From a virus, in the IMG/VR virus record IMGVR_UViG_3300049597_000050, positions 1 to 25,331 of that record: DNA of 25,331 nucleotides; one strand, written 5' to 3'. Shown piece by piece: positions 301 through 21,690 of the stretch. The number at the start of each line of letters is the position of its first letter. Position 1 is the first letter of the stretch. A program made the position numbers and the translations under genes. The notes beneath the pieces were generated by a model. The model ran no database searches, was not told the DNA's origin, and saw only the letters and a program-made list of their open reading frames with translations.

Positions 301-1706
301 TGGTAGAGTTACCTAGAGACCCTGATACGCTAGCTCGTGTTAAGAAAGTTTTAGAAGATAGAGCGTTTGCTAAGAGATGGCGTTGTGATATTGACAACTG
401 TGATGGGGAACCACACGAGGGTCGCCCTGTTCGCCACGCTAGAACCGCTCAAACACCACCTTGGAAAGACAATATGAATCAAGATGGTATTATTCGTAAA
501 TGGTACCTTAGAGGCGGTAGAGGATCTGGTAAGACTTGGGCTGGTTCTCACGCTCTTGCAGAGATAATCTTATGGCACGGCGGTACAGATAGTAATGGTG
601 ACCAAAGACAGTATGGTATAGTAGGACCTGACTTCAGGCACACCCTGGAAACCTGTATGGAAGGACCTTCTGGTCTTATCGCTGCACTAGGTGGAGAATC
701 AGGTGGCTATATTAGAAACTTTAACCGTGCAACAGGAGACCTACACTTAGAGAACGGTGCTATTGTTTATGTATCGGGAGCTGACTCATTCGGTCGTCGT
801 ATTGAGGGTAAGAACTTGACATCAGTATGGGCTGATGAGGTTGGTCTATGGTCGCTTAGAAGATGGCAAAGAACTTGGGAGCAAGCTATTCAGTTCGCTG
901 TTCGTAAGAAGCCTTCTCTTTATATTATGACTGGAACACCTAAACAGGGACATCCTTTAGTACAAAGATTGGTTGCTGACCCTACTGTTAAGACTGTTGT
1001 TATGTCTACCAAGGATAACAAGGCTCTTGACCCAGAGCAGTTAGCACAATGGGAAGCTGCTTATGCTGGTACTCGTCTAGGTAGGCAAGAGCTAGAGGGA
1101 GAGGTTCTTATGGATACCCCTGGTGCCCTATGGAGTATCGCACAAATAGAATCAAGTAGACTTGAGGTATCTCCCGAAGATCTTGTTAGAATCTTCATCG
1201 GTTGGGACCCTGCTGTTACATCTGGAGAGAACTCTGACGAACACGGTATTATTGTTGCTGGACAAATAGCGGGAGACCCTGCTCGCTTCTGTGTATTGGA
1301 AGACGGTTCGGGTAGATATTCTCCTATGGAAGCTGTTCGTAAGGTTACTGACTTGTTTGAGAAGTGGGGTGCTGATAAAGTTATCGCTGAAACTAACAAT
1401 GGTGGCGATATGATTGGTGCCTTATTGCGAACGGGTGAAGTAATAATACCTTATGATAAAGTAACTGCTACTAGGGGAAAACGCTTGCGTGCAGAACCTA
1501 TTGCTTCTTTATCTGAACAAGGAAGACTTCATATGATTGGAGCTCATCCTAAACTGGAAGAACAGATGACCACCTGGTCCCCTGAACAACCTGGTTCCCC
1601 AGACAGGCTAGACGCTATGGTTTGGGCAATAACTGCATTACAAGAAAAGAGTGCCACATCACGCGGGTATGTTGGCAAACATCGTATCTCTGTTAGGAGT
1701 AAATAA
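300..1706 (+). CDS. Terminase large subunit (packaging ATPase and nuclease)
   Basis: Motor that drives phage DNA into the prohead and cuts the concatemer. The 468-aa length is usual. The N-terminal ATPase domain shows a Walker A motif RGGRGSGKT at about residues 71-79 and a Walker B-like VWADE at 176-180 (D179, E180), followed by the coupling motif TGTP at 211-214. The C-terminal RNase H-like nuclease has acidic residues in the expected order: D303 in GWDPA, E364 in AETNN, and D435/D438 in SPDRLDAMVWA. The start at 300 overlaps the upstream stop, with a GAGGAG ribosome site just before it. The stop overlaps the portal start by one base. Family identification is secure. Packaging mode (cos or headful) cannot be told from this sequence. 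Confidence 0.96.
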   Translation: MVELPRDPDTLARVKKVLEDRAFAKRWRCDIDNCDGEPHEGRPVRHARTAQTPPWKDNMNQDGIIRKWYLRGGRGSGKTWAGSHALAEIILWHGGTDSNGDQRQYGIVGPDFRHTLETCMEGPSGLIAALGGESGGYIRNFNRATGDLHLENGAIVYVSGADSFGRRIEGKNLTSVWADEVGLWSLRRWQRTWEQAIQFAVRKKPSLYIMTGTPKQGHPLVQRLVADPTVKTVVMSTKDNKALDPEQLAQWEAAYAGTRLGRQELEGEVLMDTPGALWSIAQIESSRLEVSPEDLVRIFIGWDPAVTSGENSDEHGIIVAGQIAGDPARFCVLEDGSGRYSPMEAVRKVTDLFEKWGADKVIAETNNGGDMIGALLRTGEVIIPYDKVTATRGKRLRAEPIASLSEQGRLHMIGAHPKLEEQMTTWSPEQPGSPDRLDAMVWAITALQEKSATSRGYVGKHRISVRSK

Positions 1707-4165
1707 TGGGTCTATGGGACCGTATCACAGGATCTTTTGATAAGCGTAGCACTGAAATCGTAGGACCTCAGGGCGAAATGCTTAATAAAAATGAGTATAA
1801 AGGATTATGGGCGTCTGCTATTGGTGCAAACTCAGCAGCTGCTTCAGAACTAAACAAAATAAAGCCACACGCTGATGAGGCAACTAACCTATCAGCAGTA
1901 GCAGCAAGATCTATTGACATTATCGTTGATACTCTATCTGCATTAGACTTACAGGTTACTACCTCTACTGGTGAACCAGTGGATGACCATTTCTTAGAAC
2001 AACTATTTAACCACACTCCAAACCCTTCTGAGTCTGCTAGACTATTTAAGAAGTCAATGTGGTATCGTATCTACAATCAAGGTGAAGCGATAATCGTACT
2101 TGACCGTGGTCCTTCTCGTGTAGATACTCCTAAGACTGCACACTTACACTACGGTAAAACCCGTGTTAGACTATCTAAGCCTACTCCTCAGGCTCCTCAG
2201 GGCGATATCATCGCTTTTGAGATAGAGGTAGATAAGAAGTGGTATGTTCTATCTCCTAGCGAAGTATTATGGCTAAGAGAGCCACAGCCAGGCAACCCTT
2301 GGAAATCCCGTGCACCAATGGAAGCCGCATTAGAGTCAATCGGACTATCTCGTGCCGCTAAAGGCTGGCAAGCAGGTCAACTACTAAACGGTGCAAATCC
2401 TAACGGTATCGTTTACCTAGGAGACCCAGAGAACGATGACGCTTACTTCTTAGCCCGTGAAGAAGTAGAAGCTGCACTAACAGGACCAAGCTCAGCAGGT
2501 CGTATTGCTACATTTGCTGGACCTGTAAAGCCTGAATACATCAAGGTAGGATTCAACGCCCAAGAGGTAGCTTACCTTGACACTCTTAAAGTATCAGATG
2601 AGCAGATTGTACAGGCTCTAGGTGTACCAAGAGACTTAGTATTCGGCGGTAGCACTTATGAGAACCAGGAGCAAGCTCTTAAGGTTCTATGGGAGCACAC
2701 ACTACTTCCTAAGCTTGCTATTATTGCTAGCGAGATTAACAGACAGATTCTTTCTGACACTGATTTGTTTGCTACCTTTGATACTTCATCAGTTACTGCA
2801 TTACAGCAGAACCTAGATGCTATTGCTTCCCGTATTACTAGCGTTATTGACAAAGACATCATCACTATCAACGAAGCCCGTGCTGCATTAGGTTATGACC
2901 CACTAAGTGAAGGTGGAGATGTTACCCTATCGGCTTACAAGGTATCCCTTGGGCTACCAGTGCCAGGAGTAAATGCTGCTCTTCCAGAAGCTCGTACCAT
3001 TGAGGTTGATGACTCAAAAAAAGCATTTAGGAACATCGTAGAAACACCTGCAAAGCGTGTATATGATGTTCCTCAGTATATCCAAGATAATGCTGCTCGT
3101 GGTTTAAGATACTATGAGGAAGGCTTAGCAGGAGACGGTGTAACAGACCAGACTGTAGCGGAAGCTAGAGAAATGGCTGGCGGTTTTGTTAGCGAAGATA
3201 AGATTAAAAGAATAGGTCCTTGGATTGCTCGTCACTTAGTAGATCTTGACGCTCCAAAGAACAATGACCCAGAAGATGCAGAGTATCCAGGTCCAGGTCT
3301 TGTAGCTCACTTGCTATGGGGTTCAGGTCCAGACAAAACTACTGCTAATCGTGTTCGTCGTTGGGCTGAAAGAGAAGCAGCTAAGCTAGAAGATGCAGAA
3401 GATAGAACACACACTCGTGGTTTAGAGCCAGAAGATGTAGAGCGTAAGCTTGACAGTTTGGAAACCCAGGCTATCCGTGTTATTCGTCGTATGGCAGAAG
3501 CTATGCGTAGAGACGCTGAGAAGCGTTTACAGCGTGTAGGAGTTAGAGAGACAACATTCCCTGCTGATGCTAACTTAGTATTTAATGCTGCGGCTTGGAC
3601 TGAGAGAGCATATGAGTATCTACTACCTGTTATCGCAAGAGCACTAGAAGAAGGCTTTGAAGCTACCGCTAATGCTCTAGGTGTAAGCTTAAACTTTGAT
3701 GAGTACATTACAGTATCATCTGACGCTAGAACCAAGGTATTGGTTGACCAGGTTAACACAACTACCGCTAAGGTATTACAAGACCGTTTAACTGCTGCTG
3801 CTATCGCTGACAGAATCTCTGTTGACGAATATAAGAAAGCACTTAAGTCAACCTTTGATGATTTAACTTCTTGGCGTGCTGAGACTATTGCTAGAACTGA
3901 AATGATTGGTTCTTTTAATGGTGCTAGCCGTCAAGCTGCCGTAGATAGCGGTGTTCCAGTTTCTAGGGAATGGCTTGCTACTCGTGGACCTAGAACACGC
4001 CCCTCTCATATCGCTATTGATGGATATAAGACATTAGGAATGAATGACCCTTACCCAAATGGTTTAATGTATCCAGGCGACCCGTCTGGTGCCGCTAAAG
4101 AGACAGTAAACTGTCGCTGTGTTGAACTATTTATAACTGATTACTCCCAGGAAGGAAATATATAA
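1706..4165 (+). CDS. Portal protein fused to a C-terminal MuF-type head morphogenesis domain
   Basis: At 819 aa this is about twice the usual portal length. Residues about 1-430 are the portal: QILNGANPNG-like and LGVPRDLVFGG segments are typical of HK97/SPP1-type portals, the dodecameric ring that DNA passes through. Residues about 455-555 hold a small domain (RGLRYYEEGL, ARHLVDLDAP, VAHLLWGSG, RRWAEREA) that I know as a recurrent module in phage head proteins but cannot name with certainty. Residues about 570-660 look helical, and about 690-815 match the SPP1 gp7/MuF-type domain (IARTEMIGSFNGASRQAA, then WLATRGPRTRPSH, and the closing NCRCVE motif). The gene overlaps the terminase by one base and is followed one base later by the protease. 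A portal-MuF fusion means no separate MuF gene is needed. Confidence 0.93.
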   Translation: MGLWDRITGSFDKRSTEIVGPQGEMLNKNEYKGLWASAIGANSAAASELNKIKPHADEATNLSAVAARSIDIIVDTLSALDLQVTTSTGEPVDDHFLEQLFNHTPNPSESARLFKKSMWYRIYNQGEAIIVLDRGPSRVDTPKTAHLHYGKTRVRLSKPTPQAPQGDIIAFEIEVDKKWYVLSPSEVLWLREPQPGNPWKSRAPMEAALESIGLSRAAKGWQAGQLLNGANPNGIVYLGDPENDDAYFLAREEVEAALTGPSSAGRIATFAGPVKPEYIKVGFNAQEVAYLDTLKVSDEQIVQALGVPRDLVFGGSTYENQEQALKVLWEHTLLPKLAIIASEINRQILSDTDLFATFDTSSVTALQQNLDAIASRITSVIDKDIITINEARAALGYDPLSEGGDVTLSAYKVSLGLPVPGVNAALPEARTIEVDDSKKAFRNIVETPAKRVYDVPQYIQDNAARGLRYYEEGLAGDGVTDQTVAEAREMAGGFVSEDKIKRIGPWIARHLVDLDAPKNNDPEDAEYPGPGLVAHLLWGSGPDKTTANRVRRWAEREAAKLEDAEDRTHTRGLEPEDVERKLDSLETQAIRVIRRMAEAMRRDAEKRLQRVGVRETTFPADANLVFNAAAWTERAYEYLLPVIARALEEGFEATANALGVSLNFDEYITVSSDARTKVLVDQVNTTTAKVLQDRLTAAAIADRISVDEYKKALKSTFDDLTSWRAETIARTEMIGSFNGASRQAAVDSGVPVSREWLATRGPRTRPSHIAIDGYKTLGMNDPYPNGLMYPGDPSGAAKETVNCRCVELFITDYSQEGNI

Positions 4166-4166
4166 T

Positions 4167-5144
4167 ATGACAAACAAATGGATTGCAGAAACTCGTGCTG
4201 TTGAGCTAAGAGCTATTGTAGGACTAGAGAACTCTTTTGAGGGACTAGCTTGCCGCTATGGTGTAGAAGACTCTTATGGTACCACTTTCGTTTCAGGTTG
4301 CTTCACTCGTGGAGGACTAGATAAGGGTAGTTACTCACTACTATGGATGCACGACCCAAACCGCCCAGTTGGTACCTTTACAGCTGTTGAGCGTGCTGAT
4401 GGTCTATACATCGTAGGTAAATGGGATGACACTGCTGCTGGTAGAGATGCCCGTATGGCAGCTATGTCTGGTTCAGCTGGTGACCTATCAGTTGGATTTA
4501 CTTGGTACCAAGAACCAGGTCAAGATGAAGATTTGATTACTATCGCTAGACTACAAGAAGTTTCACAGGTTACTTCTCGCTTTGGTGCTGTCCCTGGTAG
4601 CGTGCTTACAGCCGTCAGGAACGCCGTAGAAGCCCTGGAAGACCGTTGGACTACCGAATACCCTAACAAAGAAGAAGCTGCCGTTACAAAGGATATTGAG
4701 CAGGGGACTCCAGAAGCAGAACAAGAAGAAGTTCAGGCTCCTGAGTTAGAGGAAACTGTTGAGGAAGTATTAGAAGAGACCGTAGAAGAAAGAGCAGAGC
4801 TAGGCGAACTAGCAGAAGGCGACTTCGTTTCTTTCGTATCTGAAGACGGTATAGAATACGGTCGTGTAGAATACATTATGACTGAGGGAACTTTTGGAGT
4901 AGAGGGAGACGCATTGTCTTTCCCAGCTTCTGAGGAGAACCCATTTGCTCTAATCCGTCTTTATGATAAAGAAGATGGGAAGTATGAGCCTACTACCACT
5001 TTTGTTGGTAAGAGCTTTGCAGAGCTAACTAAGATTGAACTTGTTGGAGATGTTACAGACGAAGAAACACCTCGTGAAGATAACAACGACGACAGAGCAA
5101 GCCGTATGGTATTGCTAGCCCGTTACATTCAAACATTGTTCTAA
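4167..5144 (+). CDS. Prohead maturation protease (HK97 U35/S78 type) with acidic linker and extra C-terminal domain
   Basis: Serine protease that trims the capsid during maturation. The catalytic residues are visible: H62 in LLWMHDPNRPVG, S108 in GDLSVGF, and an acidic candidate E131 in LQEVSQVTSRFG. The core takes about residues 10-155. It is followed by a Glu-rich low-complexity linker (about 165-210) and then a beta-rich domain at about 218-292 (EGDFVSF, GRVEYIMTEG, PASEENPFALIRLYD, ELTKIEL). That domain is one I have seen attached to proteases of actinobacterial phages and may act as scaffold. No separate scaffold gene is visible between this gene and the capsid gene, so the capsid delta domain and this C-terminal region are the likely scaffolding pieces. 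A hairpin follows the stop (5152-5186). Confidence 0.92.
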   Translation: MTNKWIAETRAVELRAIVGLENSFEGLACRYGVEDSYGTTFVSGCFTRGGLDKGSYSLLWMHDPNRPVGTFTAVERADGLYIVGKWDDTAAGRDARMAAMSGSAGDLSVGFTWYQEPGQDEDLITIARLQEVSQVTSRFGAVPGSVLTAVRNAVEALEDRWTTEYPNKEEAAVTKDIEQGTPEAEQEEVQAPELEETVEEVLEETVEERAELGELAEGDFVSFVSEDGIEYGRVEYIMTEGTFGVEGDALSFPASEENPFALIRLYDKEDGKYEPTTTFVGKSFAELTKIELVGDVTDEETPREDNNDDRASRMVLLARYIQTLF

Positions 5145-5962: not shown

Positions 5963-7018
5963 ATGGACATTCGTACACTACAGGCAGAAGCTGCAAACCT
6001 TGCAGCTATCGCTGAAAAAGGTGACCTAACCGAAGAGCAGAGCGTTCGCTTTGACGAGGTTATCAGCACCATTGAAAACAGAAAAGCACAGGCTGAGAAA
6101 GCTGCTCGTGCGATTTCACTAGTCAAAGACACTGAGGTTGTAGAGACCGTTGCTGTTGAGACTGCAGGCACCATCGGACAGACCTATGTTCGTTCAGGTA
6201 AGGCTGGTTCTCGTGACCGTGTCTCTGCTAACATGGAAATCCGTGCTACCCTAACTGGAGACATCGTTGTTAACCCAACTCTTGACAATGTTGCTACCCC
6301 ATCATTCAAGGCACCACTAACAAGCATCGTTTCAGTAACCCCAGTAACCACTGGTGACGTTACCGTTGTAACTGCTACTCCTACCTACGGCGACACAATC
6401 TTCACCGCAGAAGGAACCAACAAGGAAGAAGTTGAACTAACTTACACTTCTGAGGTTAAGGCACTTGGAACAATGACTGGTTTCATCAAGGCAAGCCGCC
6501 AGGCACTATCTGACTCAGCTCAGCTAGCTTCTGACATTGACCGTGAGCTAACCCAGAACCTAGTACGCAAGATCGAGAACCACATTGCTGGTACTCTATC
6601 AACAGCTACTTTCTCTGAGGTTGAGTCTGACGACATCCTTTCTGCAGCTTCTGTTGCAAAGGCTATCGTTGACAGCGGTCTATACACTGCTAACACCATC
6701 GTTCTAAACCCTATTGACAAGAGCAACATTGATGTTTCTGTTCTAGGTCTAGGCGGAACTTCTCCAATCGTAAACAACACTGTTTGGGGACTAAACATCG
6801 TTACCTCTGCTGCTGTTACTCAGGGAACCGCTTATGTTGGTGACTTCGCAGCTGCTGTTAAGTTCTACACCAAGAATGGCGTAGAGGTTTACACAACTGA
6901 CGCTGATGGAACCGACTTCATCAAGAACATCGTTACCGTTCTTGCAGAAGCTCGTGGAATCGCTGCTGTTGTAGCACCTGCTGCAATCGTAAAGATTGTT
7001 CCTGCAGTAGCTAGCTAA
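5963..7018 (+). CDS. Major capsid protein (HK97 fold, with N-terminal helical delta-like region)
   Basis: The protein is 351 aa and comes after the protease in the usual order. Residues about 1-50 are charged and helical (QAEAANLAAIAEKGDLTEEQ, IENRKAQAEKAARA), as expected of a delta domain that guides prohead assembly and may be removed by the protease. The rest has the alternating beta and Gly/Thr-rich character of HK97-type capsids, with FTAEGTNKEEVELTYTS resembling the E-loop/P-domain and GDFAAAVKFYTKNGVEVY the A-domain edge. AAGGAAGG precedes the start. Codon third positions are visibly richer in C than in neighbouring genes, which suits a very highly expressed protein. A strong terminator follows at 7050-7097. 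The cleavage site is not determined. Confidence 0.9.
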   Translation: MDIRTLQAEAANLAAIAEKGDLTEEQSVRFDEVISTIENRKAQAEKAARAISLVKDTEVVETVAVETAGTIGQTYVRSGKAGSRDRVSANMEIRATLTGDIVVNPTLDNVATPSFKAPLTSIVSVTPVTTGDVTVVTATPTYGDTIFTAEGTNKEEVELTYTSEVKALGTMTGFIKASRQALSDSAQLASDIDRELTQNLVRKIENHIAGTLSTATFSEVESDDILSAASVAKAIVDSGLYTANTIVLNPIDKSNIDVSVLGLGGTSPIVNNTVWGLNIVTSAAVTQGTAYVGDFAAAVKFYTKNGVEVYTTDADGTDFIKNIVTVLAEARGIAAVVAPAAIVKIVPAVAS

Positions 7019-10124: not shown

Positions 10125-11723
10125 ATGGCTAATGAGATAGCACCTATTAGTGTAAAGTTTACAGTTGACACCACAGGGTTAAAGAAAGCAGAATCTGCTA
10201 TATCACAATCTGGCGAACAGATTAAAGGTAAGTTTTCTGGCATCGGTAAAGGTGCAGGACTAGCCCTAGCAGCTGGTATAACAGCAGCAGCAGTAGGTAT
10301 TGGTAAGACAGTAATATCTGCTATTAAGACATCTATTGATGCTGCCAGCAATCTTGAAGAAAGTATTAGCAAGACTTCTGCCGTATTCGGAGATGAAGCA
10401 CTACCAGCTCTGGAAGACTGGGCAGCAGGGGCTTCCACAGCATTTGGGCAATCAAAACAGCAAGCCTTAGAAGCAGCGGGTTCTTATGGTAACCTATTAC
10501 AAGCATTTGGTTTAACTCGCGAACAAGCACAGGGCATGTCTGTTGATATGGTAGAGCTCGCTTCTGACCTAGCATCTTTTAACAACACTTCTGTTGATGA
10601 TGCATTAAATGCTATTCGTTCAGGACTATCAGGAGAGACTGAGCCTCTAAAGAGATTCGGTGTAGCTTTAAGCGAAGTAAGACTTAAAGAAACAGCAGAA
10701 GAAATGGGACTTGTTGCCAAGGGTACCAAGGGTCCCCTATCGGTAGCCATTAAATCACAAGCAGCTTATGCTCTTATCCTAAAAGACACTAGCCTAGCAC
10801 AAGGTGACTTCGCTAGAACATCTGACGGTCTTGCTAACTCACAAAGAACCCTAGAATCAGAACTAGCAAATGTTAAGACAGAGATTGGTGTAGCATTTAT
10901 TCCTATTATGAAAGAGCTAGTAATAGCATTTAGAGATGCACTACCTGAGATTAAAGAGAAGCTAGTCCCAGCATTAGGTGAGATGGCAGATAAGTTTAAG
11001 GCTGATATATTACCTGCTCTTATAACACTTATTCCAGCTATTACAGGATTATTTATTCTACTAGCTGAGAACATTGACACAGTTGTTACCTTAGTAACCA
11101 CATTAGGAACACTAACAGCTATTATTAAGACTTTTACAGTGCTACAAGCAGGACTAAACCTAGTACTATATGGTAACCCTATTCTATTAGTGGTAGCAGC
11201 TGTAGCACTTTTGGTTGCAGGTATTGTTTACCTGGCTACCCAGACCACCTTCTTCCAAGACACTTGGCAGAAACTAGCTGAGGCTTTCAGTTATGTTAAA
11301 ACTGTAATCGCTGACACATTTGAGAATGCTAAAGCAACTATCTCTGGCTTCTTTGACACTATCTTCGGATTCCTAAACGGTCTAGGAGACCAGCTATACA
11401 GTTTTGGTAAGACAGCGTGGGAAATGTTCGTACAGGGAGCCCTGGATGCCCTTCTAACTCTACCAAGCCTAGTTGCTGACGTCGTAGGGTCTATACCTGG
11501 CTTAGAATGGCTAGGAGACGGTATTAACAGCGGTATAGGAGCAGTTAGAGACACAGTATCAGCAGCTACAGGTACAACTAACCGTGGACAGACTAACCAG
11601 CCTGCAAGAGGACAAATAGTTAACAACTATAATGTTCAGGCAAGAGGATTAACAGTATCTGAAGTAGCAAGAGATGCTAAGCGTAGAAGCAACTTAATGT
11701 CACCAGTACTCGGAGGAGCATAA
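10125..11723 (+). CDS. Tape measure protein
   Basis: The protein is 532 aa, the length ruler of the tail. The N-terminus (ISVKFTVDTTGLKKAESAI) and the Gly/Ala-rich region at about 30-60 are typical, followed by a segment common in tape measure proteins (SISKTSAVFGDEALPALEDW, SYGNLLQAFGL, DLASFNNTSVDDALNAIRSG). Hydrophobic stretches lie at about 300-385 (ALITLIPAITGLFILLAENI, PILLVVAAVALLVAGIVYL), as expected of a protein that enters the host membrane. At roughly 1.5 angstrom per residue, the family rule, the tail would be near 80 nm. AGGAG precedes the start. No muralytic domain is visible. Confidence 0.93.
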   Translation: MANEIAPISVKFTVDTTGLKKAESAISQSGEQIKGKFSGIGKGAGLALAAGITAAAVGIGKTVISAIKTSIDAASNLEESISKTSAVFGDEALPALEDWAAGASTAFGQSKQQALEAAGSYGNLLQAFGLTREQAQGMSVDMVELASDLASFNNTSVDDALNAIRSGLSGETEPLKRFGVALSEVRLKETAEEMGLVAKGTKGPLSVAIKSQAAYALILKDTSLAQGDFARTSDGLANSQRTLESELANVKTEIGVAFIPIMKELVIAFRDALPEIKEKLVPALGEMADKFKADILPALITLIPAITGLFILLAENIDTVVTLVTTLGTLTAIIKTFTVLQAGLNLVLYGNPILLVVAAVALLVAGIVYLATQTTFFQDTWQKLAEAFSYVKTVIADTFENAKATISGFFDTIFGFLNGLGDQLYSFGKTAWEMFVQGALDALLTLPSLVADVVGSIPGLEWLGDGINSGIGAVRDTVSAATGTTNRGQTNQPARGQIVNNYNVQARGLTVSEVARDAKRRSNLMSPVLGGA

Positions 11724-12583: not shown

Positions 12584-15472
12584 ATGTCTAAATGGATAGC
12601 AGCAGGTAGAACTATAGCTGGTGGTATTACTACACCAACAATAGTTCAGACAACTGACGGTATTAACTGGACCACTGTAACAACATCTGGATTACCTTTA
12701 AGAGGACAAGTTGATGCCGTACATTTTGGCGATGACTTATTTTTAGCTACCATAAGCGGAGCTACTATTTCTACCGAAAATGGTATATATAAATCAGCAG
12801 ATGGAATAACTTGGGTACAAGTAAACACATCTCAAGGAACAGTAGAGTTTGCTTGGGGTGAAGATATTTGGGCAAGAATACAACAGAGTAATGCTTCTAT
12901 ATCTTTTAATGATGGTACTACTTGGACTACTGCTCCTTTTACTTTGACAAATGCAAATAGGATTGCATATGGGTCTGGTAGATTCTTAGTATTTGCTAGG
13001 TCAAGCGGTAGTACTATTGCACTTCGTAGATATACAATAGGTACAGGTTGGGACCTTGTAAATATATCAGGACCAAGAGGTGGAAACTTTTCGGTAACAG
13101 GTTTAGAATATAACAATAATCGTTGGGTAGGAATAATAACATATTCAACTGGTCCAGCGTCTGTATATTCTATGCAATCCTTAGATAATGGTAATACTTG
13201 GACTTTTAATATAATATCTACTGCAACCGCTTCAGGTGGACTTGCTTATGGTAAAACACCAGGTGGACCTAGAGTATGGGTGACTGGTGTAGCGGTTGGT
13301 GCAACTATTTTTACTGCATATTCTACAGATTTAGTCACTTGGACTTTAGGAACTAATCCTTTTCCTACTCAAGTTATTGGTGCTGTAAACTATGCGAACA
13401 GTGTATTCTTTGTATCTCAGTCTACCGTAACAGGACAGTTAGCTCGTTCTTCTTCTAATCCTCCTTCTTTTAGCCTTGTTGCTGGTTCTCCTTTAATGAC
13501 AACAATATTTGGTCTATCAGATACTTTCCCTAGAGAAGATGACCCTTTTACTGATATTGAAGCATTGGGTAACAATGGGCACACGGTATACCAGCCGTCT
13601 TACATTTATGCTAGCCTACTATATAGAGGTCCATTAGTAAATGCTGAAAATGCTCTAACCTTATATACAGTACAAAAGGATTACAGATATGATAGTGCAA
13701 CAGAACTAGTTCCTGTATCACCTAAGGTATCAGATGATGGACTACCTTTCTACACTGATGTATATCCAGTAGGTGGAGACCCTGAAGATGATGAGTTTAG
13801 TACTAGACCAGGACAGGTACCTTATCACTCTGAAACTATATCACCTTGGGGTAAGATAGGTATTCTTATAAATAACGAAGATGTTACCTTCTTCCGTGAT
13901 GCTCCTACTATTATTGAAAGCATAAGCTGGCAGACATTTGGTAACTTTGAGACTTTGTCGCTATACTTCCCTCACATTACTGTTTATGACAAGCTTGGAC
14001 TTGCTACACCTACTACAAGCTCTGGAACAGGCGGAGGAGTAATCGCTTCATCTATTCCTTGGCTAAACGATAGTAACAATGTTGAGATTAGAAGACTAAA
14101 ACCAGATAACACAGAAGAAACCCTATGGATAGGTTCTATAAATGGTTTAGAACTAGATCCTAGCGGTTATGGTGTTAGACTAACTTGCTCTGGATTACTA
14201 TATGATACTAATCATCAACTTATACCTGGAGCATTTAGAGAAGTTGAGTTCGTAGCTCCTGAAGATGTTGGTATTATTACTGCTAATACTCTAAATAGCC
14301 TATCTGGTAGATGGACTTATGCTGAGCCTGCAACAGTTGGAGTAGAGACTATTAAGATTGGTAACTGGGATAACGCATTGGATTTCCTGAGAGCCTTGAA
14401 TACCTTTGGTACACCTAAGCTATGGTTTGATACTAATGCTACTCCTTTCGTAACTGGTAGACCAGATATGAATGAGTTTGATCTAGTTGCAGGACAAGAA
14501 GGTGTAGAGTTAAACCTTGCTTATGACTCTAACGCTATTCCTACACACATTTATGGTACAGGTACTATACCTTCTGGTGCAGCTTGGAGAAATGTTATCT
14601 ACCCTAGAATGACTGGTGATGATGCACAATACAGATGGCCTTTTGACGATGTAAACGCTACTCTAAGTAAGGGTATGAGAAATAGAGATACTATTAACAA
14701 CAATGGTCTTACTGCTCTTGGATTTATGCTTCAAGATAAAGCTTTAATATCTCCTTTTGCTCCGCCTCTAACAAGATTTAGCAACAGCGTACAGGGATTC
14801 GTAGAACAACTACAAGAGATTTACGAGCAAGAAGTTACAGGCGATGTTGACATTGAGCTATGGAACAACTTAGTTAGTGATACTCGTGGAGTAGGTAACT
14901 CTGTAGGTAATGCTTATATAGCTCCATTGTATGTTTCTCCGCTTGTAGACCCTACCAGCCCTTCTTATGACCCAAATGTTAAGAAGGTAGAACAGTTCAT
15001 TGACTTCGGTGGAGATATCACTCTAGAAGAAGGTATAGCTGTAGCTGAGTCTATCGTTCTAAGAGATTTGATTAGGGTTAACACTGGAGAACCAGCGGTA
15101 TACCGCCCACGCAAGAGCGTAACTGGTAATATTACTCTTACTGTATGTCCTGCTACCATATCTCGTTGGGATATAAAACCAGGCGATAGAGTTAAAGTCT
15201 GGACGCACTTATTTGCTCCTATCCCGAAAGATACACACAATACTGTTGAAGGCTTTACACAAGAAGCTGGAGAATGGGGTGGCTCTGTTGTACTATATGT
15301 ATCTAGAGTAGACTGGTCTTTCAATGGAACTCCAACTGTTACCTTAGAAGTATCATCTCGTGACTTAGAATACAGTGAGCTAGAAGCAGCTAAGAATAGA
15401 ACAAGAGTATCTAATGCTCAGGCTAGCGAGATTACAAGAATCAAGAAAGCTATTACTAAACCTAATAACTAA
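12584..15472 (+). CDS. Tail hub protein with N-terminal seven-repeat propeller-like domain
   Basis: The protein is 962 aa. Residues 1 to about 310 contain seven imperfect repeats about 37-50 residues apart, each with an Asp-box/BNR-like core: TDGINWTTV (24), ADGITWVQV (72), NDGTTWTTA (109), GTGWDLV (153), DNGNTWTFN (201), TDLVTWTLG (248) and a degenerate PPSFSLVAG (293). That is the layout of a seven-bladed beta-propeller, often used for sugar binding. From about residue 340 the sequence changes to that of a minor tail or tail-associated protein (WGKIGILINNEDVTFF, DWSFNGTPTVTLEVSSRDL). This part likely forms the tip hub, with a helical C-terminus. The propeller region appears more AT-rich than the rest, suggesting a swapped-in receptor-binding module. 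No peptidase motif seen. Confidence 0.82.
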   Translation: MSKWIAAGRTIAGGITTPTIVQTTDGINWTTVTTSGLPLRGQVDAVHFGDDLFLATISGATISTENGIYKSADGITWVQVNTSQGTVEFAWGEDIWARIQQSNASISFNDGTTWTTAPFTLTNANRIAYGSGRFLVFARSSGSTIALRRYTIGTGWDLVNISGPRGGNFSVTGLEYNNNRWVGIITYSTGPASVYSMQSLDNGNTWTFNIISTATASGGLAYGKTPGGPRVWVTGVAVGATIFTAYSTDLVTWTLGTNPFPTQVIGAVNYANSVFFVSQSTVTGQLARSSSNPPSFSLVAGSPLMTTIFGLSDTFPREDDPFTDIEALGNNGHTVYQPSYIYASLLYRGPLVNAENALTLYTVQKDYRYDSATELVPVSPKVSDDGLPFYTDVYPVGGDPEDDEFSTRPGQVPYHSETISPWGKIGILINNEDVTFFRDAPTIIESISWQTFGNFETLSLYFPHITVYDKLGLATPTTSSGTGGGVIASSIPWLNDSNNVEIRRLKPDNTEETLWIGSINGLELDPSGYGVRLTCSGLLYDTNHQLIPGAFREVEFVAPEDVGIITANTLNSLSGRWTYAEPATVGVETIKIGNWDNALDFLRALNTFGTPKLWFDTNATPFVTGRPDMNEFDLVAGQEGVELNLAYDSNAIPTHIYGTGTIPSGAAWRNVIYPRMTGDDAQYRWPFDDVNATLSKGMRNRDTINNNGLTALGFMLQDKALISPFAPPLTRFSNSVQGFVEQLQEIYEQEVTGDVDIELWNNLVSDTRGVGNSVGNAYIAPLYVSPLVDPTSPSYDPNVKKVEQFIDFGGDITLEEGIAVAESIVLRDLIRVNTGEPAVYRPRKSVTGNITLTVCPATISRWDIKPGDRVKVWTHLFAPIPKDTHNTVEGFTQEAGEWGGSVVLYVSRVDWSFNGTPTVTLEVSSRDLEYSELEAAKNRTRVSNAQASEITRIKKAITKPNN

Positions 15473-15615
15473 TAACTGTAATGTTTATGTAATGTGTTAC
15501 ATTTTATTACATAGTATTACACCGACTGCTGAAAACCCGTATGTCGGTTAACCGTGCGTCGGTTATCTGGGTGCTATAAGAACACCCAAGAAGAAAGAAC
15601 ATAAGAAAATAGCTG
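15473..15615 (+). repeat. Gene-free region, left part: TGTAA/TTACA and GTCGGTTA repeats
   Basis: No gene is credible here. An AT-rich dyad TGTAA-TGTG-TTACA lies at 15488-15501, inside a wider set of TGTAAT and ATTACA repeats (15477-15520). Two direct repeats GTCGGTTA stand at 15543-15550 and 15558-15565, with an inverted partner ACCGAC at 15521-15526 and a GGTTAACC palindrome at 15546-15553. A 6-bp hairpin TGGGTG/CACCCA lies at 15568-15588. The first dyad may be the end signal of the tail unit or an operator. No T-run marks a classic terminator. The cluster could also be part of an origin or a larger RNA. Confidence 0.6.
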
Positions 15616-15748
15616 GGTTGGTTTTAATAGGTTAAGTTGATCTATGGTTGAGTTATACGCCGACTAATCGGCGGACTCTCCAAAAACAATATTCAATGAA
15701 GATAAAAACAATCACTTTATCTGTTATAACTCTTCTTCTAAACCAGCC
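15616..15748 (+). ncRNA. Predicted multi-helix RNA in the gene-free region
   Basis: Nested pairings can be drawn by eye. The outer helix is GGTTGGTTT (15616-15624) with AAACCAGCC (15740-15748), 9 bp with one G-U. The inner helix is GAGTTATA (15650-15657) with TATAACTC (15725-15732), 8 bp perfect. Inside it, hairpin CGCCGA-CTAA-TCGGCG sits at 15658-15673, stacked directly on the inner helix, and hairpin AGATAAA/TTTATCT at 15700-15722. This makes a three-way junction closed by a long outer stem, which is more order than expected of random AT-rich DNA. There is no open frame, no tRNA features and no known RNA family that I recognise. It could be a leader, a small RNA or an origin structure. Confidence 0.45.
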
Positions 15749-15762
15749 AATCTGATATCATA

Positions 15763-15778
15763 TCGTTAGAGATATAAT
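15763..15778 (+). promoter_or_regulatory. Promoter candidate (TCGTTAGA + TATAAT)
   Basis: TATAAT at 15773-15778 is preceded by TCGTTAGA at 15763-15770. The same TCGTTAGA-TATAAT pairing occurs at 25167-25180, where it precedes a leader hairpin. No good -35 hexamer is seen at 17 nt. It would give a second start site about 60 nt upstream of the promoter at 15809-15838, so the operon may have tandem promoters. Confidence 0.5.
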
Positions 15779-15808
15779 AGTTAAAATAAATCTAAAAGTT
15801 TTTTCCTT

Positions 15809-15838
15809 GAAATATAAAAACACGCCGATATATATACT
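15809..15838 (+). promoter_or_regulatory. Phage promoter, copy 1 of the GCCGATATATATANT class
   Basis: GCCGATATATATACT (15824-15838) ends in a -10-like TATACT. An A-tract ends 4 nt before GCC, and upstream GAAAT matches copy 3. A TTGAAA at 15807-15812 could act as -35, but it is not kept in copies 2 and 3. The predicted start lies just before the leader hairpin at 15847. It drives the nuclease-like and sigma-like genes. Confidence 0.7.
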
Positions 15839-15846
15839 ATGAAACA

Positions 15847-15862
15847 GAGAGTGGCAGCTCTC
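15847..15862 (+). promoter_or_regulatory. Leader hairpin, copy 1
   Basis: Stem GAGAG (15847-15851) with CTCTC (15858-15862), loop TGGCAG. It is followed by CTTAAGAAAGAAGAGAAAT and the ATG at 15884, 21 nt after the stem. The arm sequence differs from the other copies yet still pairs, while the loop is identical. CTCT (15858-15861) could alternatively pair with AGAG (15874-15877) in the ribosome-binding stretch. Confidence 0.75.
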
Positions 15863-15883
15863 CTTAAGAAAGAAGAGAAATAA

Positions 15884-16549
15884 ATGAGTTTAGAACGAAA
15901 CGCAGGATATGCAAAGGGTAAGCCTAAAGAGGCTATATCTATTGCACGATTTACCGACTTCTTATCTAAGAAGATTACCACTGACTTTAATATTGTCACA
16001 GACAAAGAAACTCAGTGGCAGTTCGGAGATATCAAACTGGGCAATGAAAAGTTTATTGAAGTAAAAGGTCAAGGTATCAACCCTAACAAGTATGGAGGTA
16101 AGAACTTCATAGAACTTGGAGAGATGACCTTTAATGAAAAGCACTCTGGTGGCTTTAACCGATTAAAGGATATCCTTGGTATTCCAGATTTGGAGAACCA
16201 GGTTGTCAGCGACCGTAATAAGAATGTTGATAGACCTTTCGGCAGCCCAGAGATGTTTAATGTTGGTCTAACACCTGCATCAAACGATACAATGTATGCT
16301 TATGTCAATAATAAGCACGATAACGCAGATGAGGTTTATATCTACCTGTACTCAGCTAAGAACTTGCTATCTCTAGTTAGAAACGCTATACTATCAGATA
16401 CTAAGGTAACACTGGGTGCAGGTGGAGCTAACAATGTAACCTTCGGTATTACAATCCCTGTTGCTAAAGCAGTATGGAGACGCACCAATGGCGAATGGAC
16501 TTTTGTAGGGAGTGGAAATGAGCAAGAAATCATCAAAGCCATCTCCTAA
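15884..16549 (+). CDS. PD-(D/E)XK-like putative nuclease
   Basis: The protein is 221 aa. The segment FGDIKLGNEKFIEVKGQG carries the arrangement D49...E59-x-K61, which fits the catalytic core of the PD-(D/E)XK nuclease fold (D on one strand, ExK on the next). The N-terminal helix ISIARFTDFLSKKIT and an upstream Q/E-rich stretch fit the helix that precedes this core. The remainder (YAYVNNKHDNADEVYIYLYS, then GITIPVAKAVWRR) is not recognised. It might be a restriction-like or recombination nuclease, or a decoy without activity. It is the first gene behind the copy-1 leader and overlaps the sigma gene by 32 nt, so the two are co-expressed. Confidence 0.6.
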   Translation: MSLERNAGYAKGKPKEAISIARFTDFLSKKITTDFNIVTDKETQWQFGDIKLGNEKFIEVKGQGINPNKYGGKNFIELGEMTFNEKHSGGFNRLKDILGIPDLENQVVSDRNKNVDRPFGSPEMFNVGLTPASNDTMYAYVNNKHDNADEVYIYLYSAKNLLSLVRNAILSDTKVTLGAGGANNVTFGITIPVAKAVWRRTNGEWTFVGSGNEQEIIKAIS

Positions 16550-17261
16550 GCTTACACCTGAACAGGCTAAGCTTGTAGAAGACCATATCGCACTCGCAAG
16601 AAGTATTGCTAGGAAGATGACTCCTAAGGTTTCCCAAAACTTACTATCTTATGAAGATGTAGAGTCAATAGGATATCTAGCTTTATGTGTAGCCGCTATA
16701 TCGTTTGACCCAACTAAGGGCTTTGCATTTAGTACTTATGCTACTAGTGTAGTTAGAGCTGAGATTATTAAAGCTAACCGTAAAGGCTTTTCAAGTGTAT
16801 CTATTAGTGAGAGTTTACATATCACTATTTGGAACATTAACAAAGCGGTCAACAATGGCATTCCAGAGACCGTAGAAGCCCTCTCAGAGGCTCTTAATGA
16901 ACGACCTAGTAAGATTAGGCAGGCACTAGATCTAAAGGATTCTACAATAGGTTCAACAGATACTTATGTAAATATTCCTGAGCACTATTCATCGTTTATA
17001 GATGGTATAAAAGATACGGACGCACCAGTTGAAGAACAAGTGATGGATAATATCGCTGGGGAAGAAGTTCGTGCAGCAGTAAGAATGTTACCACCTAACT
17101 TCAGAGAGCTTATCGGGTATCGTTTCGGATTTATCACTGGTGAGCCAATGTTATCCGAAGAGGTTAGAGAACTAATAGATGTTGATGTAGATACTTATAG
17201 CAATATGGAATCAGCTGCTATGGAATATCTAGAAGCAATACTAAGAGGCTACAAAAAATAG
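16518..17261 (+). CDS. Phage sigma-70-family factor
   Basis: The protein is 247 aa from the ATG at 16518 (AGGGAG upstream). An in-frame GTG at 16512 is less likely. Region 2 is clear at about residues 18-90: LVEDHIALARSIARKM, then YEDVESIGYLALCVAAISFDPTKGFAFSTYATSVVRAEI, which in order resembles the core-binding and -10 recognition helices of sigma-70 (the FDPxxGFxFSTYA box). A region 3-like helical segment follows (about 113-140). Region 4 is recognisable but degenerate at about 180-243 (AAVRMLPPNFRELIGYRFG, then a weak HTH and AMEYLEAIL). It probably redirects host RNA polymerase to phage promoters, and the GCCGATATATATANT class in this window is an obvious candidate target. Confidence 0.85.
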   Translation: MSKKSSKPSPKLTPEQAKLVEDHIALARSIARKMTPKVSQNLLSYEDVESIGYLALCVAAISFDPTKGFAFSTYATSVVRAEIIKANRKGFSSVSISESLHITIWNINKAVNNGIPETVEALSEALNERPSKIRQALDLKDSTIGSTDTYVNIPEHYSSFIDGIKDTDAPVEEQVMDNIAGEEVRAAVRMLPPNFRELIGYRFGFITGEPMLSEEVRELIDVDVDTYSNMESAAMEYLEAILRGYKK

Positions 17262-18797: not shown

Positions 18798-19301
18798 ATG
18801 AAGAAACCAGTAATAGACAATACGATATACGATGTGCCAGTATCAGCTCTGGTAGAATACCCTGGTAACGCTCGTGTAGGGTCCGTAGAAGCCATAGCAG
18901 AGTCTCTGCGAGTAAATGGTCAATATCGCCCTATCGTAGTCCGTAGGGAGACCAGGGAAATCCTTGCAGGCAATCACACTTGGAAAGCTGCTAAACACAT
19001 CAAATGGGATACTATCAAAGTAACCTATGTAGAAGGACTAACAGACCAACAAGCAAAGCGTATCGTTTTAGCAGATAACCGTTATAACGATATCGCTACA
19101 TATAATGTTCCAGATCTTACTGCACTATTAGAAGGACTACCTTCTTTAGAGGGTACAGGTTTTGACGATTATGTATTAACTAACTTAGAAGCCGCTTTTA
19201 CCCCAGCTCCTGAACCAGTGGGAACCTTGGGTAACGGGGAAACCGAAAGACAACCGCAGGTATTAACCTGCCCTAACTGCAACCATGTATGGGAGAAATA
19301 A
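18798..19301 (+). CDS. ParB-like nuclease-domain protein with C-terminal zinc ribbon
   Basis: The protein is 167 aa. The ParB/sulfiredoxin-like core is at about residues 10-100: YPGNARVGSVEAIAESLRVNGQYRPIVV, then GNHTWKAAKHIKWDTIKVTYVEG and ADNRYNDIA. The GNHTWKAA box corresponds to the CTP/ATP-binding motif of ParB-fold proteins. The C-terminus CPNCNHVWE looks like half of a zinc ribbon. In many phages such genes accompany DNA methyltransferases, as here (two genes downstream). Role: binding or cleaving DNA during modification or packaging, not certain. Confidence 0.88.
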   Translation: MKKPVIDNTIYDVPVSALVEYPGNARVGSVEAIAESLRVNGQYRPIVVRRETREILAGNHTWKAAKHIKWDTIKVTYVEGLTDQQAKRIVLADNRYNDIATYNVPDLTALLEGLPSLEGTGFDDYVLTNLEAAFTPAPEPVGTLGNGETERQPQVLTCPNCNHVWEK

Positions 19302-19304
19302 CAA

Positions 19305-19808
19305 ATGGCTAGACCAACAAGATTAAATCAAGAAAAGATGGAGAAGATAGCTCAGCTAATATCAGCTGGCAACTTCGCCGAAACAGCAGCACAAGCATCA
19401 GGCATTAGTAAAGCAACTTACTATAACTGGTTAGCTCGTGGTAAGGCTGAGAAGGACCGTTTAGAGAAGGAAGATAAGAGCAATCCTAAGGCATCAGAAA
19501 AGCCTTATGTAGAGTTTCTGGACACCATAGAAAAAGCAAAAGCGGAGGCAGAAGCTCGTATGATACTAGTTATTAGCAAGGCTGCAAGTGACCCAAAGAG
19601 CTGGACAGCGGCTGCTTGGTGGCTAGAACGCGTGTTTCCTCAGAAATATGGTAAGATTACCCGCACGGAAATCTCGGGACCCGATGGTTCACCTATCAAG
19701 TCTGAGACTAAGCAAGTAGCGTTATCTGAGGCAGAAATCATCGCTTTAGCTGACGAAATACTAGGATTTAAGCAAAAAACCGACAATAATGAGAAAGTAG
19801 AGAACTAA
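19305..19808 (+). CDS. HTH protein resembling small terminase subunit
   Basis: The protein is 167 aa. The N-terminal HTH is clear: GNFAETAAQASGISKATYYNWLARG at about residues 22-46. A helical spacer and SWTAAAWWLERVFPQKYGK (about 98-116) follow, a segment typical of small terminase subunits (the WxLERxxPxxxG pattern), then a short beta turn SGPDGSPI. If it is TerS it would recognise the packaging site and recruit the large subunit encoded at 300. The 18-kb separation is unusual, and the partner genes (ParB-like, methyltransferase) suggest it may instead serve as a DNA-binding helper. It ends one base before the methyltransferase start, with TAATATG. Confidence 0.72.
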   Translation: MARPTRLNQEKMEKIAQLISAGNFAETAAQASGISKATYYNWLARGKAEKDRLEKEDKSNPKASEKPYVEFLDTIEKAKAEAEARMILVISKAASDPKSWTAAAWWLERVFPQKYGKITRTEISGPDGSPIKSETKQVALSEAEIIALADEILGFKQKTDNNEKVEN

Positions 19809-19809
19809 T

Positions 19810-21690
19810 ATGACACAGACCCCTAATGATAAAGATATAAAGCTAGAGAATGCTCTGGTAATGTATGGAGATGCTATCAAGCGTCTTAAAGAGCTACCAG
19901 ATAACTCTGTTGACAGTATTGTTACTGACCCACCTTATGGACTATCAGATAACAAGTATGTTGCAGATACTATTGCTAAATGGATTAACGGCGAGCGAGA
20001 CTTCATTCCTGACGGTAAGGGATTTATGGGGAAAGCCTGGGACTCCTTTGTTCCCCCTCCTGCTATCTGGGATGAGTGCCTAAGAGTTCTTAAACCAGGC
20101 GGTCATTTACTTGCTTTCTTTGGTAGCCGTACACAAGATGTTGGAGCACTCTCTATTCGTCTTGCTGGCTTTGAGATTAGAGACAGTATTAGCTGGGTAT
20201 ATGGTTCAGGTTTCCCTAAGTCGCTTGATATCAGTAAAGCTATAGATAAGAATAATGGAGAGACTGATAGACTTCAACGCTTTACTGCTTTTATGAGAAC
20301 AACAGGATTAACTGCTAAACAGTTGAATGATTGTACAAACTCAAATATGGGAAGTCATTATATAACAGATAAATCACAGCCTGCTATACCAACAGCTTCA
20401 TATTGGAAACTTATTCGCTCACTTATCACTATTGAGATTCCTGAATGGGTTGACAAGTTGGTTGACCGTATTGAAGCAGAGCGTGAAGTTATAGATAGTA
20501 AGCCAGCTTATGGTATTGGTAATAATGGTGCTGCTTTTAATGGTCACAAAGAAGGTGCTATGGCTATTACTTCTCTTCCTGCTACCGACGCTGCTAAGAA
20601 ATACGAGGGTTGGGGCACTGCTCTTAAACCTGCTCACGAGCCTATTGTGGTTGCTCGTAAGCCTTTGTCTGAGTCTACTGTGGCGAACAATGTTCTCCAA
20701 TGGGGAACAGGGGGCTTGAACATAGACGCAAGTAGGATTGGGTTTGCAAGTGAAGAGGACCAAGCATTTTATGACTCAGAGATTAAAAGAAACTATGGTA
20801 AAATATATTCTAATGAAGCATGGATAGCTGTTGCTGGTAAAGTTGCAAAACCAAATGGTAGTAAGATTGGTCGTTTCCCTGCTAACTTTATTCTATCGCA
20901 CACTGAGGACTGTGAGGATACAGGTGAGGTTATTACTGAGACTTATACTAACCATAATGCACCTAAGGGAACATTTGCTGGTGGAGAACCAGATAGGGGT
21001 AGCGATACTTCAGAGTATAGGGGACAGACTACTTCTACCCCTGTTTTCAGGTGTGCCGAGGGTTGCCCTGTTGCCGAGTTAGACAAGCAGAGTGGAGTTA
21101 GTAAGTCAGTAAGTGCTAATATGGGTGCTGGACTTATTGAAGGTATTGGTGCTAAAGGACTAAGTAAGAATGCTGAAACTTTTGAGTCAGTCCGTGGACA
21201 TAATGACTCTGGCGGTGCTTCTCGTTTCTTCTATGTAGCCAAGGCTAGCAAGAAAGACAGGAACGAAGGTATGACTGAAACTAATAACTTCCATCCTACT
21301 GTTAAGCCTACTCAGTTGATGGAATACCTTATTAAGTTAGTTACCCCAGAAGGCGGGACTGTGTTAGATCCTTTCACTGGTTCTGGCTCTACAGGCAAGG
21401 CTGCACTGTTAAACGGTTTTAAGTTTATCGGTTGTGAACTAACAGAAGACTATCTACCTATTATTGAGGGTCGCTTGTCTTGGGCTTCGGCTAATAAAGA
21501 TAAGTATCAGGCTGATAAGGTAGCGGCTGTTACCAAGGCGAACAAGGTAGCCCAGAATACCCGCTCAAAAGCCACAGGAGGCTCTCTGACGGCATTAGAC
21601 GCTGCAGAGGTAGCATTACAGCAGATAGCGGCAAAGAAGGCTAATAAGGCAGATAATCAACTACCGTTATTTGACGAGGTGGAAGAGTAA
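19810..21690 (+). CDS. DNA methyltransferase (N6-adenine/N4-cytosine type) with a large insertion
   Basis: The protein is 626 aa, long for a phage methyltransferase. Catalytic motif IV DPPYG is at about residues 40-44, and the SAM-binding motif I DPFTGSGSTG at about 520-529. Motif IV therefore precedes motif I, as in beta-class enzymes. The segment LGHLLAFFGSRT-like region at about 95-110 (GGHLLAFFGSRTQD) fits motif V-VI. Between motifs lies a long insertion with an HTH-like block at about 155-195 (FMRTTGLTAKQL, then SHYITDKSQPAIPT), likely the target-recognition part. The C-terminal tail is lysine- and alanine-rich. It protects phage DNA from host restriction by modifying a specific sequence that I cannot deduce. 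Confidence 0.92.
   Translation: MTQTPNDKDIKLENALVMYGDAIKRLKELPDNSVDSIVTDPPYGLSDNKYVADTIAKWINGERDFIPDGKGFMGKAWDSFVPPPAIWDECLRVLKPGGHLLAFFGSRTQDVGALSIRLAGFEIRDSISWVYGSGFPKSLDISKAIDKNNGETDRLQRFTAFMRTTGLTAKQLNDCTNSNMGSHYITDKSQPAIPTASYWKLIRSLITIEIPEWVDKLVDRIEAEREVIDSKPAYGIGNNGAAFNGHKEGAMAITSLPATDAAKKYEGWGTALKPAHEPIVVARKPLSESTVANNVLQWGTGGLNIDASRIGFASEEDQAFYDSEIKRNYGKIYSNEAWIAVAGKVAKPNGSKIGRFPANFILSHTEDCEDTGEVITETYTNHNAPKGTFAGGEPDRGSDTSEYRGQTTSTPVFRCAEGCPVAELDKQSGVSKSVSANMGAGLIEGIGAKGLSKNAETFESVRGHNDSGGASRFFYVAKASKKDRNEGMTETNNFHPTVKPTQLMEYLIKLVTPEGGTVLDPFTGSGSTGKAALLNGFKFIGCELTEDYLPIIEGRLSWASANKDKYQADKVAAVTKANKVAQNTRSKATGGSLTALDAAEVALQQIAAKKANKADNQLPLFDEVEE

Follow-up and report, generated by a model that had tools for sequence, protein, structure and literature searches.

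Beta-propellers occur in several phage proteins that take part in host recognition. In the available text of PMC4901313, phi11 gp45 is a receptor-binding protein with a beta-propeller whose cavity could accommodate GlcNAc, and PRD1 P2 and phiKZ gp131C are cited there as other propellers in phage host recognition. Propellers are also present in crassvirus and T7 tails, according to the accessible part of PMC10172136. Propeller adhesins are thus known; a propeller fused to the N-terminus of a tail hub was not found described in the literature searched, which was partly accessible and had most subscription journals outside its coverage. Such a fusion was predicted in the viral DNA analysed here (the window: 25,331 nucleotides, positions 1 to 25,331 of IMG/VR record IMGVR_UViG_3300049597_000050).

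Architecture of the propeller-hub protein

The gene (12584-15472, plus strand) encodes 962 residues in a reading frame intact over 962 codons, as correctly given, coordinates included, in the original prediction. Its parts and the neighbouring features are listed in Table 1.

Table 1 Coordinates of the fusion gene parts and of neighbouring features in the window.
Feature	Position	Strand	Basis
Propeller module, seven Asp-box units	12584..13522	+	Residues 1-313; repeats and shuffles, propeller profile, AF2, structural alignment
Propeller unit starts	12584, 12734, 12863, 12977, 13118, 13268, 13400	+	Repeat analysis
Linker, residues 314-420	13523..13843	+	No confident structure; hub homology begins past the linker
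Tail-hub part, residues 421-962	13844..15472	+	Homology to Pam4_36, EBPR6 gp9 and L015; fold matches
Stretch aligned to the peptidoglycan-binding domain of relatives, ~residues 705-765	14696..14878	+	Alignment; borders approximate, by eye
Tape measure protein	10125..11723	+	PHROGs phrog_1535, 111.7 bits
Dit-position protein, 144 aa	11725..12159	+	Alignable to same-place genes; name Dit inferred from position
Gp80-like protein, 131 aa	12174..12569	+	Pfam PF23140, 40.6 bits (cut-off 27); counterparts in relatives
AT-rich 411-base stretch 3' of the hub gene	15473..15883	.	No ORF of at least 80 aa

A seven-repeat module had been predicted at residues 1-310, and seven units were indeed found (residues 1-50, 51-93, 94-131, 132-178, 179-228, 229-272 and 273-313; 38-50 residues each). 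Five of them carry the canonical Asp-box core [DN][GL]x[TN]W, with the tryptophan at positions 29, 77, 114, 206 and 253, and the cores of units 4 (IGTGWD) and 7 (SSNPPSF) are degenerate. Five canonical cores were reached by none of 20,000 composition shuffles of the module (shuffle maximum, 2), and a pattern scan of residues 320-962 found no canonical core. Leave-one-out profiles supported unit 1 (real score reached by 2 of 500 shuffles), unit 2 (0/500) and unit 3 (2/500), supported unit 5 weakly (16/500) and gave no support to units 4, 6 and 7 (164, 488 and 379 of 500 shuffles, respectively). Units 1-6 are nevertheless in register, because the core aromatic positions 29, 77, 114, 156, 206 and 253 meet a W or F in all eight propeller-bearing rows of the combined alignment; unit 7 is putative, being called from its predicted strands and its length as a repeat.

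We then scored the protein with a profile built from seven rows of other phage propellers, leaving out the window row and the two propellers of L017, a prophage-like stretch of an Acidimicrobiaceae MAG, so that L017 was left testable. The module scored 65.4 bits and the remainder of the protein -0.7 bits, and the highest score among 1,000 shuffles was 1.6 bits; the score of the module is not fully independent, since the window module headed the alignment whose similarity searches had supplied these rows. The Pfam BNR model, only 12 positions long, was not among the matches of the window protein at E values up to 1, and it also misses the propeller of L017 (13.3 bits, cut-off 27). PHROGs gave no match for the fusion protein or for either half, NCBIfam matched two propeller-type families, both far under their cut-offs, and sequence searches of solved structures with each half alone returned chance-level matches.

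The AF2 model of the full-length protein, made from a 13-row alignment, gave a ten-residue mean pLDDT of 50-85 over residues 1-280 and a pLDDT below 50 for residues 280-421. Within residues 1-280 each unit shows roughly four strands, the region near residues 213-235 being the exception. A model of residues 1-353 made without alignment was discarded (pLDDT 34). The model thus arranges predicted four-stranded blades as a propeller, the outcome that had been anticipated for AlphaFold. Aligned with VIA-align 2, residues 1-306 matched the lectin PLL (8q7u) with a Z score of 21.6 and an rmsd of 3.3 A over 292 residues, and similar matches were obtained with WDR4, virginiamycin B lyase and GH74 enzymes (xyloglucanases). 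A Foldseek search of viral models retrieved numerous phage proteins of this type, and some of them bear a BNR or DUF6242 annotation. Such likeness of fold to lectins or enzymes shows no function. Taken together, these data confirm the repeats and predict that residues 1-313 fold as an Asp-box (BNR) beta-propeller. The same module occurs in other contexts in other phage proteins, such as those of phage contig L023, where four adjoining genes (L023:3680-8826) of ~390-430 residues, alike at their ends and with seven Asp-box cores apiece, form an array of propeller adhesin genes.

Hub family, gene order and variation at both ends

Whole-protein searches of the phage records and IMG/VR found no relatives, and these were therefore reached from the hub half and by way of alignments. 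Residues 427-957 match Pam4_36 (pairwise E 1e-8) and residues 432-952 match gp9 of EBPR siphovirus 6 (pairwise E 6e-12), while the hub of L015 matches the hub half with an E value of 8e-30. Together with the fold matches below, this supports the proposed fusion to a hub-type protein. Hub sequence had been said to follow from residue 310; a hub part does follow, but its homology begins at about residue 421, past a linker of about 107 residues. Residues ~421-957 belong to a rare hub family: when three of its members were searched against 50,697 phage records, each retrieved Pam4, EBPR6 and MT835568 and no other record. Pam4 is a siphovirus by microscopy, according to the available text of PMC9382816.

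Pfam gave no match for the hub half. PG_binding_1 was over its cut-off in the hub of Pam4 only and under it in those of EBPR6, L015 and L017, and the window protein had no Pfam match to a peptidoglycan-binding domain. The hub half of the AF2 model is confident only in patches (~421-470, 491-540, 631-650, 841-870 and 901-930). Foldseek listed for it baseplate hub, minor tail and COG3500 phage protein D entries, with low TM-scores and patchy pLDDT, and also 7b5h_AJ, a base plate chain of an injection system. These fold matches agree with a hub, the predicted model being too weak to prove one.

The gene order also speaks for a hub. Tape measure, Dit-position, Gp80-like and hub genes follow one another in the window, so that one small gene, the Gp80-like one, lies between the Dit-position gene and the hub. 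The same four genes are consecutive in L015, and the last three in L020; one gene separates the Gp80-like gene from the hub in L021, and two in Pam4. The Dit-position protein shares 15-24% identity with the same-place genes of L015, L016, L020, L021 and Pam4. Searches with the capsid, portal and tape measure proteins gave distant or incomplete neighbours: L003, L004 and L006 carry other tail genes where read, L009, whose portal is 66% identical, ends short of the tail tip, and L014 carries a different protein at the hub position. Among 395 genomes of the class of L017, 271 matched the hub profile and were not counted as hubs because, among the matches listed, all but the genome of L017 cover only positions ~257-375 (peptidoglycan-binding).

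Elsewhere in the window, a portal protein and a Mu F-like head morphogenesis domain are fused in one 819-residue gene (1706-4165). On the 3' side of the hub, the stretch 15473-15883 may contain the border between the tail genes and those that follow. No family of Pfam, PHROGs or NCBIfam matched the gene at 15884-16549, a sigma-factor-like protein (phrog_351, 115 bits) is encoded at 16512-17261, and a ParB-like protein, a small gene and a 626-residue N6/N4-type DNA methyltransferase stand in a row at 18798-21690.

We compared nine members of the hub family: the window, Pam4, EBPR6, L015, L016, L017, L020, L021 and L050 (a 780-aa frame). The hub motif (DVTFFR at residue 433 of the window protein) is preceded by 432 residues in the window, 618 in Pam4 and 459 in L017, and by 67 in EBPR6, 94 in L015, 22 in L016, 72 in L020, 23 in L021 and 121 in L050; six of the nine thus have a short N-terminus (22-121 residues) and three one of more than 400. 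Two of the nine, the window and L017, bear an N-terminal Asp-box propeller, so that the comparison with relatives that had been suggested does reveal a module present in some and absent from others. EBPR6, for which no profile score is listed, was counted without propeller because 67 residues are too short. The ~600 N-terminal residues of Pam4 had no Pfam match. The fusion had been called unusual, which holds for most relatives but not for L017, with its own propeller, nor for Pam4, with a different N-terminal region of ~600 residues. The L017 hub (L017:3256-8738) carries, besides its N-terminal propeller, a second insert of repeats, different in type, within the hub, and the gene next to it is a separate Asp-box propeller gene.

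The opposite end varies as well. A C-terminal domain of ~130 residues is present in all eight relatives, and the window hub stops ahead of it. Nor was this domain found at 15473-15883 or elsewhere in the window; a one-sequence search gave a best E value of 1e-4 at 4203-4436, in the head-protein region, which was judged a chance match.

Base composition and origin of the module

The module had been described as more AT-rich than the hub. The difference is slight in total GC (38.1% against 39.8% in the rest, about 1.6 points) and holds at third codon positions (Met and Trp excluded), where GC is 12.5% in the module and 22.4% in the hub half, a gap reached by 7 of 5,000 synonymous-codon permutations. 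Of the 29 segments tested, the module has the lowest third-position GC (z -5.9), but the value for the hub part is low as well (z -3.75). Such values fit a foreign origin or a common selection on the gene and date no exchange. The major head protein gene (window 5963-7018) deviates in the other direction, with 38.3% third-position GC against 27.2% expected (z 5.0).

The unequal codon bias of the two halves, and the fact that the exact gene was found in this record only among the searched collections, would also be expected if the fusion were an assembly artefact of the metagenomic contig. We regard this as highly improbable: the gene is a single intact frame of 962 codons, L017 shows a second fusion of the same kind, and, relative to the other genes of the window, both halves are poor in third-position GC.

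As for recent domain exchange, which had been suggested from the composition, it was not demonstrated: no donor was found among the sequences compared, identity between the module and any of them reaches no more than ~34%, and that over a local stretch, and the codon bias is only suggestive. The propellers of the window and L017 occupy the same place ahead of the hub, and might have been inherited from an ancestor of both hubs and lost elsewhere, without any exchange. This seems unlikely, as the window module matches propellers from other phage proteins better (best E 4e-12) than it does the L017 propeller (E 0.004), and the L017 hub propeller is closest to that of its own neighbour gene. This argument is weak, because the tree has one well-supported branch only and long end branches. 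Separate acquisition of the two propellers is thus favoured by the sequence comparisons, not proven, and we infer that, in this hub family, additional modules come and go at the N-terminus and are swapped there.

Proposed role and comparison with known systems

We propose that the module is an adhesin on the N-terminus of the hub, putatively binding the host surface, and consider this reading probable though far from certain. A siphophage-type tail-tip hub would carry a seven-bladed Asp-box propeller on its N-terminus via a flexible linker. The hub part, presumably a trimer, would close the tail tube beneath a Dit-like ring, and the propellers, probably three because there would be one per hub chain, would hang off the tip and bind a surface glycan or another receptor. 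The propeller would then do the job of separate receptor-binding proteins and, perhaps, that of the C-terminal domain kept in the relatives. We favour the adhesin as the best supported reading because the propeller is present in some members and absent from others, the linker is long and lacks confident structure, the fold is lectin-like, no recognised adhesin gene follows the hub and the C-terminal domain of the relatives is absent. The search for such a gene 3' of the hub covered this record, for which there is no estimate of completeness and which is classified as lacking end repeats, so that an adhesin gene could lie outside it.

The crassvirus muzzle and T7 nozzle propellers are, in the accessible part of PMC10172136, structural parts of the tail, and the present one might similarly pack around the tail tip or the Dit ring and make no receptor contact. 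Seven of the nine hub-family members, however, do without a propeller, and the module sits on a long linker that has no confident structure, which makes a purely structural role quite unlikely. We hold it for very unlikely that the propeller is a glycan-degrading enzyme (a sialidase-, xyloglucanase- or lyase-like depolymerase) clearing surface polysaccharide. GH74 xyloglucanases and virginiamycin B lyase are among its structural neighbours, the phage propeller profile matches GH74 enzymes and sialidases with E values of 2e-4 to 6e-3, and an annotated polysaccharide lyase lies directly ahead of the Pam4 hub; but lectins devoid of enzyme activity score equally high, and fold alone shows no function. 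Sialidases (GH33-like) carry an R-I-P type motif, and a pattern search found no R-[IVL]-P motif in residues 1-319.

More tentatively, the adhesin reading may be extended to the whole family: adhesins would sit on the hub N-terminus, in the reverse of the usual Tal order, propellers would have been plugged in at least two times, and the propeller of the window would have replaced the lost C-terminal domain, one gene thus encoding both hub and receptor-binding protein. If the adhesin reading is right, a core tail protein would offer a natural docking point at which host-binding modules vary while the hub stays constant. A role would also be suggested for hubs still annotated hypothetical, such as Pam4_36 and EBPR6 gp9, and one more case would join the few propellers known from phage proteins of host recognition, for which ligand data are few.

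Compared with described proteins, the window protein resembles phi11 gp45 in that a beta-propeller is part of a siphophage protein for host recognition, putatively so in the window; as given in the available text, the gp45 propeller differs in having five blades and in belonging to an RBP gene of its own, with stem and tower, whose six trimers stand round the baseplate, outside the hub. With phiKZ gp131C it shares, according to the same partial sources, a seven-bladed propeller, at the baseplate periphery in phiKZ, with a guessed role in receptor binding or surface degradation, the function being unconfirmed there too; phiKZ is a myophage, and its propeller is the C-terminal domain of another protein. 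Within the hub family, Pam4_36 and EBPR siphovirus 6 gp9 hold the same place in the tail gene order, but both keep the C-terminal domain, and their N-terminal regions are another one of ~600 residues and a short one, respectively. L017 is alike in its N-terminal Asp-box propeller and its hub family, and unlike in its second repeat insert, its retained C-terminal domain and the further propeller gene beside it. Finally, siphophage Tal proteins with extensions or CBMs are, in the accessible part of PMC7291167, likewise hubs encoded after the tape measure and Dit that bear host-binding modules; there the modules lie after or within the N-terminal structural domain, whereas in the window protein the module stands ahead of the hub domain.
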